Positions 41,200 to 41,625 of a stretch of 64,000 nt of DNA are shown in pieces. The stretch spans positions 62,001 to 126,000 of the forward strand of contig JAMPKV010000006.1 in the NCBI GenBank assembly GCA_039962225.1, written 5' to 3'. The position numbers and the translations under genes were made by a program. The notes under the pieces were generated by a model. That model saw only the letters and a program-made list of their open reading frames with translations, did not search any database and was not told where the DNA came from. This DNA comes from Microcoleus sp. AS-A8 (GTDB lineage: Bacteria; Cyanobacteriota; Cyanobacteriia; Cyanobacteriales; Coleofasciculaceae). The number at the start of each line of letters is the position of its first letter. Positions within the stretch are counted from its first letter, which is position 1.

Positions 41200-41211
41200 G
41201 CAGTAGTAATC

Positions 41212-41577
41212 CTGACATCTTGCGCCAGTCGCAATAACCCGCCAGGGGTTTAAACCCCTGGCTAATAGATTAAGTCGTCTAAAGACGACTGGATAAAAGT
41301 TTTAGTCCATTTCAACTCACATCTTGCAGCAGTCGCAATAACCCGCCAGGGGTTTAAACCCCTGGCTAATAGATTAAGTCGTCTAAAGACGACTGAGTAA
41401 GAATTTCAGTCCATTTCAATGGACTTGGGCTATGAGCCAAGAAATTAATTTCTTGGCAGGTGTGGAGGCTTACTGACAAAGGTGCAAGATGTGAGTTTCA
41501 ATGGACTTGAGCTATGACGCAAGAAATTAATTTCTTGGCGGGGGTGAAGGCTTACTGACAAAGGTGCAATATCTCAG
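41212..41577. mobile_element. Outer MITE copy, interrupted by a second copy
   Basis: Its left half (41212-41315) and right half (41496-41577) are the same as those of the inner element. Its ends are imperfect inverted repeats (CTGACATCTTGC against GCAATATCTCAG). Internal palindromes include CCAGGGGTTTAAACCCCTGG, AGTCGTCTAAAGACGACT and AAGAAATTAATTTCTT. No ORF is present. It would depend on a transposase in trans. Confidence 0.75.
41316..41495. mobile_element. Inner MITE copy with 13-bp TIRs and 6-bp target duplication
   Basis: A 180-bp element bounded by perfect inverted repeats CTCACATCTTGCA and TGCAAGATGTGAG and flanked by the direct repeat TTTCAA (41310-41315 and 41496-41501). Removing it restores the palindrome of the outer copy (AGTCCAT-TTCA-ATGGACT). 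This is clear evidence of transposition into the centre of a sibling element. Confidence 0.85.
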
Positions 41578-41625
41578 AATCTCTTCATTCGGGTCAGGAC
41601 ACAGGATGGGCGATTCTCTGTTGAT

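Follow-up and report, generated by a model that had tools for sequence, protein, structure and literature searches.

A cyanobacterial MITE inserted into a hairpin of a sibling copy, and the likely role of a target sequence carried in the element's own core

In a 64,000-nucleotide stretch of the Microcoleus sp. AS-A8 genome (hereafter the window), one copy of a MITE lies in the centre of a hairpin belonging to another copy of the same element. The locus raises the question of whether the incoming copy was directed there by the sequence of the hairpin or by its structure, and of which transposase could have moved it. Here, we describe the locus and its relatives, the hairpin-rich core of the element, a transposase partner, and the sites at which elements with these ends have inserted.

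The nested locus and its relatives

The inner element is bounded flush on both sides by TTTCAA, and its termini, CTCACATCTTGCA and TGCAAGATGTGAG, form a perfect 13-bp inverted repeat (Table 1). When the inner element and one TTTCAA are taken out, the outer copy measures exactly 180 bp and aligns to the inner copy without gaps. The insertion falls on the dyad centre of AGTCCATTTCAATGGACT, which is hairpin three of the four in the outer copy. A sequence-only reading of the window had described the repeats, the flush duplication, the restoration of the outer copy and the insertion at a sibling's hairpin centre, and all of these hold to the base; it had not mentioned the 4-bp target duplication AATC around the outer copy.

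Table 1. Coordinates of the nested MITE copies in the window
Feature	Position	Strand	Remarks
Target duplication AATC of outer copy, left	41208..41211	.	4 bp
Outer MITE copy, left part	41212..41309	+	left TIR 41212-41224
Outer hairpin H1	41241..41262	+	GCC..GGC, 22 bp
Outer hairpin H2	41273..41290	+	AGTC..GACT, 18 bp
Outer hairpin H3, left 12 bases	41304..41315	+	split by inner element; remainder 41502-41507 past the duplicated TTTCAA
Target duplication TTTCAA, left copy	41310..41315	.	6 bp
Inner MITE copy	41316..41495	+	180 bp, placed in outer H3; no overlapping ORF of at least 80 aa
Inner left terminal inverted repeat	41316..41328	+	13 bp
Inner four-hairpin core	41341..41461	+	half-units 41341-41394 (+) and 41408-41461 (-)
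Inner H1	41345..41366	+	
Inner H2	41377..41394	+	AGTCGTCTAAAGACGACT
Inner H3	41408..41425	+	AGTCCATTTCAATGGACT; sequence identical to the split target
Inner H4	41436..41457	+	GCC..GGC, 22 bp
Inner right terminal inverted repeat	41483..41495	-	13 bp
Target duplication TTTCAA, right copy	41496..41501	.	6 bp
Outer MITE copy, right part	41502..41577	+	H3 remainder, H4, right TIR 41565-41577 TGCAATATCTCAG
Target duplication AATC of outer copy, right	41578..41581	.	4 bp

Another genome of the same genus (G001) provides the empty site: the same locus there holds a single uninterrupted copy, AGTCCATTTCAATAGACT, with the right end of the outer copy missing. This confirms the nested insertion as real, and the simplest reading is that it postdates the split from that genome. 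The order of parts at the locus reads A-A'-B'-B, as might also result from unequal recombination or from a tandem duplication of halves without any transposition, but the exact 6-bp duplication and the 180-bp length of both copies argue otherwise, the uninterrupted copy in G001 does so strongly, and there are 84 further insertions with duplications, 12 of the 15 other core-near ones lying at the same point. We consider such an origin extremely improbable.

The element has 43 matches, often short ones, in the genome itself (7.75 Mb in 54 contigs). Besides the inner copy, seven places (L002-L006, L008 and L010) agree with it at 165 or more of the 180 positions, so that chance is not at issue for the element. 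In six of the seven, both ends can be recognised, at a spacing of 179-181 bp, and L010 has the left end only. With at most one mismatch allowed, the end pattern occurs 89 times in this genome (21 times for a reversed control); six relatives have 10 to 100 exact end matches each, compared with 0 or 1 for the control. The element is short, has no transposase gene, carries terminal inverted repeats, is flanked by a target duplication and exists in many copies, all of which, together with the ends common to six of the seven other near full-length copies, supports its identification as a MITE. The further proposal that this one locus defines the family proved right for the ends (six of seven copies) and wrong for the length and the duplication: identical ends also bound elements of other lengths and interiors, mostly 109-200 bp depending on the subfamily, and duplications range over 4-6 bp. 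A gapped version of the end pattern was applied to G012 and G014 and picked out two elements, both of them in G012. We found no paper on this element in the open-licence literature that we searched.

Other nested arrangements were also seen. At L176 (2588-2886), a second MITE-in-MITE consists of a 111-bp element centred in AGTCGGTTTAAACCGACT within a 182-bp copy that has a 5-bp duplication of its own, and at L114 (in G010) and L264 two MITEs are successively inserted at the same duplicated target (TTTCAA and TTAAAA).

The four-hairpin core

The core consists of two inverted half-units, in each of which a T(A/C)ATAG linker joins a GCC..GGC hairpin to an AGTC..GACT hairpin. From 51 candidate half-units, a fixed filter on length and stems kept 43, of which 42 were aligned, one from L005 being left out for its shifted register. 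Among these 42, 127 cells are changed on both sides of a stem and three of 756 are G-U; the percentage of paired positions is biased upward, as the stem filter favours paired arms. A further set of 105 matches, which was itself fitted to the half-unit model, has 373 double changes and six G-U cells of 1765. In both sets, covariation is almost entirely of the Watson-Crick kind. RNA helices usually show more G-U pairs than this, and their near absence points to pairing in DNA.

Matches to the half-unit model number 86 in the Microcoleus genome (five of them partial) and occur in 31 of 37 genomes, this one included, with at least 150 in each of three. Two of the four Y1 transposase genes of the Microcoleus genome are flanked on both sides by core units (L341 and L347; at L347 the right-hand unit overlaps the start of a long ORF). 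At 18 tnpA loci from this genome and its relatives, half-units are present at 13 of the 14 with at least 50% identity and at none of the four that are more distant; as a control, they are present at one of 30 DDE-transposase loci (30 of 55 such loci were used). At L354, L360 and L366, tnpA has a forward half-unit on one side and a reverse one on the other, the arrangement expected of a complete parent of the core; two of the reverse half-units are weak (17.9 bits at L360 and 21.9 bits at L366), and the gene at L366 is broken. The TnpA proteins score 88.8 and 79.8 bits against the IS200/IS605 model NF033573, above its cut-off of 55, and 26.9 and 19.0 against the NCBIfam RAYT model, below its cut-off of 80. 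The core is thus probably a gene-less IS200/IS605-type element, that is, its ends without its gene. Members of the IS200/IS605 family make no target duplication and find their targets through a guide sequence.

Covariation in the hairpins would also be expected if the core were a structured RNA, with hairpins kept for an RNA function, along the lines of the Rfam family Acido-Lenti-1 (RF01687). Rfam searches of part of the window and of 20 loci gave the core sub-threshold matches only, and Acido-Lenti-1 was among them in both searches, with 26.1, 24.5 and 23.8 bits; the search of the window part also returned weaker sub-threshold matches to other families. Even the 26.1-bit match stays below the gathering score of 37, however, and both the rarity of G-U cells and the association of the core with a Y1 transposase gene speak against this explanation, which we regard as quite improbable. 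The sub-threshold matches lie at 41242-41290 and 41346-41394 of the window, at 1471-1504 of L015 and at 1359-1388 of L040. In the Acido-Lenti-1 consensus, as in the core, GGCUAAU comes after an opening hairpin, and the RNA family may itself be the end of an IS200-type DNA element.

Some further observations, made by eye, concern the surroundings of such hairpins. A different end, AGGGCTGTTTCATTCT, also bounds cores, on both sides in L321 and L340 and on one side in L134 and L030; the core seems to be shared by unrelated mobile elements. In L342 and L344 (~1300-2200), a more distant IS200-type tnpA lies beside other double hairpins, joined by the linker GGCTATACGAA, in a core-like layout.

The DDE transposase partner and the target duplications

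One genome per species, from 84,980 species, was scanned for the 22-base end CTSASATCTTGCACCATTCTCA, a longer end whose requirement may favour one sublineage. The scan found at least 117 stretches, and all of those among the matches listed are from cyanobacteria, as judged from record names. At four of them (L210, L160, L216 and L233), two such ends, the second with 0-2 mismatches, lie 1.2-1.4 kb apart and flank a DDE transposase ORF, which in L216 is split in two frames. The L210 protein reaches 48.9 bits against PF01609 (cut-off 23; 8.8e-13), and three acidic positions, which we take to be the D, D and E, are conserved in nine of nine aligned transposases; a DDE_Tnp_1 domain above the Pfam cut-off and these conserved residues place the protein in the IS4 superfamily. 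Its closest NCBIfam models (IS701, IS4, IS1380 and IS1182) score below every cut-off (64.2/170, 53.6/150, 46.1/250, 48.5/115 and 31.1/180, the first three pairs being those for IS701), and we therefore assign it to no IS family. Members of the IS701 family make 4-bp target duplications.

A relative of this transposase is found at E 1e-6 in 11 of 37 genomes, the Microcoleus genome included; G001 has none. Seventeen transposase loci were inspected, of which 11 have both ends (at most two mismatches) and five have one; autonomous ISs with the ends of the MITE accordingly exist at L210, L160 and L233 and at these 11 loci. The duplication flanking the 11 copies is 4 bp in six cases and absent in five, with no case of 6 bp.

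The Microcoleus genome contributes a decayed transposase fragment with two stops and neither end. A PF01609 search of four genomes produced one match in this genome, with no end (at most two mismatches) nearby; its list of ends with at most one mismatch holds no strong long pair suggestive of an autonomous IS, long end pairs occurring there with two mismatches in the second end; and the ORFs next to 28 solo ends included just one weakly similar pair. A transposase with the same terminal repeats, for which the sequence-only reading had advised looking, is thus to be found in other cyanobacteria, and this genome retains the end-less fragment. On the ordinary reading, the MITEs have outlived their IS here.

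Target duplications were counted for 112 innermost end pairs (121 pairs when composite ones are included; L182 is counted twice among the 112, with the same left flank): 53 are of 6 bp, 12 of 5 bp, 19 of 4 bp and one of 7 bp, and 27 pairs have none. A second sample of 35 pairs, from G001, G017 and G012, has two of 6 bp, 15 of 5 bp, four of 4 bp and 14 without duplication, some of which may be wrong pairings; it derives from 40 regions hand-picked from the listed G001 and G017 positions plus two G012 loci, more mismatches being allowed than in the first set, and the L378 site occurs in it twice. Duplications are thus 4-6 bp long, lineages differing in this respect, and the fixed 6-bp duplication once supposed for the family is contradicted at the locus itself by the 4-bp AATC of the outer copy. 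We also considered whether a 6-bp duplication might be 4 bp plus two carried bases AA, and rejected this, since the host bases would need to match every time.

Target preference, a proposed history and known systems

When 51 six-bp sites are aligned, they read AGTCSG-TTWWAA-CSGACT. Seventeen of them (17 of 53 six-bp sites in all) have at least five of six flanking positions paired, and the 34 that are not in hairpins carry the same half-sites, with arms no more complementary than permutation would give (80 of 204 pairs, permutation mean 82.0, p = 0.67). A PWM trained on 33 non-hairpin six-bp sites, leaving aside L260, L264 and L273 as possibly lying in decayed cores, and made symmetric has the dyad-symmetric consensus AGTCGGTTTAAACCGACT, a sequence of the same type as the inner hairpins of the core. 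Against a background of 854,147 positions that include 21 intact core hairpins, sequence alone predicts that 30% of insertions should fall in intact H2/H3 hairpins (bootstrap 22-38%); the observed share is 11 of 45 six-bp insertions (at most one mismatch, AGTC..GACT frame), both figures coming from loci among the scan matches listed. The 600-bp flanks of these 11 have the core region alone in common, so they represent different places. Sixteen insertions lie no more than 60 bp from a core half-unit, and 13 of these are exactly centred in an 18-bp hairpin. At L188 and L215, an identical element occupies the same target in opposite orientations and with different outer flanks.

The half-site score peaks flush with the cut in both samples, in the first at each duplication length of 4, 5 and 6 bp, and hardly any half-site signal is present at 5 bp in the second, where 15 sites score -1.12 flush and -1.22 one base off. 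None of the 21 duplicated sites in that second sample, mostly of 4-5 bp, is in an AGTC hairpin; with just two 6-bp sites, it hardly tests the 6-bp class, and it shows that hairpin targeting and the target specificity seen in the 6-bp class are not general to these ends.

The sequence-only reading had suggested structure-guided targeting. In such a case, the transposase would recognise an extruded hairpin or cruciform (or a hairpin of single-stranded DNA at the fork) and cut around its loop. The comparison of insertion sites with palindromes lends this a measure of support in the 17 of 53 six-bp sites at palindrome centres. Palindromes other than the AGTC type were also hit, in the Microcoleus genome (L002, L005 and L006), where three hosts are AACCCG or ATCCCG palindromes with low scores of 3.5-4.5, and at L039, where the host is GGAAGT-TTAAA-ACTTCC. 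Hairpin-like sites are 6-bp sites in 17 of 18 cases and other sites in 34 of 67 (Fisher p = 7.6e-4), an excess that a structural effect could also give. Yet the same half-sites recur where the arms are not complementary, the observed hairpin share is predicted without any structural term, and all 16 core-near insertions lie outside H1 and H4, which are longer palindromes. Structural recognition is thus unlikely and is not needed: the 6-bp sites outside hairpins already spell the hairpin sequence. Most likely, sequence preference suffices, and formation of a hairpin or cruciform is not required.

We propose, as a likely account, that a cut-and-paste DDE MITE entered its sibling at a target that is read as sequence and is carried in a gene-less IS200-type core. 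The ends of the MITE (CTSASATCTTGCA) are those of a DDE IS of the IS4 superfamily that is complete in other cyanobacteria, and its transposase would have acted on the MITE in trans, in an ancestor, since the present genome keeps just the decayed fragment. The enzyme, probably a dimer, would read a half-site like AGTCSGTT on each side and cut flush with it. At some stage the MITE may have captured the core; a MITE with the core offers its own transposase a good target, and new copies would land in old ones. Our confidence in this account is lowered by the poor co-occurrence of cores and transposase: at E 1e-6, there is no transposase match in G012, G014 and G017, which are rich in ends and cores, and in G031 and G036 the transposase is present but the core has no match.

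More tentatively, the MITE can be viewed as a composite selfish element, in which captured IS200-type hairpins that equal the DDE consensus target form a landing pad of its own. If this possible but somewhat doubtful view is true, insertions would be diverted to old copies and other neutral repeats and the host genome would be spared; a mobile element holding a preferred target of its own kind could be a simple model for limiting host damage. Whatever the benefit to the element may be, genomic data alone here separate sequence from structure in palindrome targeting, supply a concrete 18-bp target consensus and tie a covarying hairpin repeat to an IS200-type transposase. The open-licence literature that we searched contained no MITE with the target consensus of its own transposase.

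Several known systems resemble parts of this one. The DDE partner has in common with the IS701, IS4 and IS1380 ISs the PF01609 domain and its closest NCBIfam models, at scores below the NCBIfam cut-offs. Another cyanobacterial MITE is Nezha (cited in PMC3733652 and PMC10969869). ISs that target REP palindromes include ISRm22, ISPsy8, ISPa11, ISPpu9/10 and IS1397, and ISRm22 is described as a member of the IS4 family whose nine copies all lie in REP elements (PMC1525189). As here, a transposase inserts in repeated extragenic palindromes; in our case, by contrast, the mobile element itself holds the palindrome that is its own target, within an IS200-type core. REPINs and their RAYTs (PMC3116915) resemble the core in that palindromic repeats form inverted doublets close to a Y1 transposase gene, but the TnpA proteins fall short of the RAYT model (26.9/80) and each half of the core is two hairpins joined by T(A/C)ATAG. 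PATEs, which are ends-only derivatives of IS200/IS605 elements (PMC7290912), are likewise hairpin-only elements beside an IS200-type tnpA; they are described as having one required hairpin per end, whereas the core has two per end, in inverted order.
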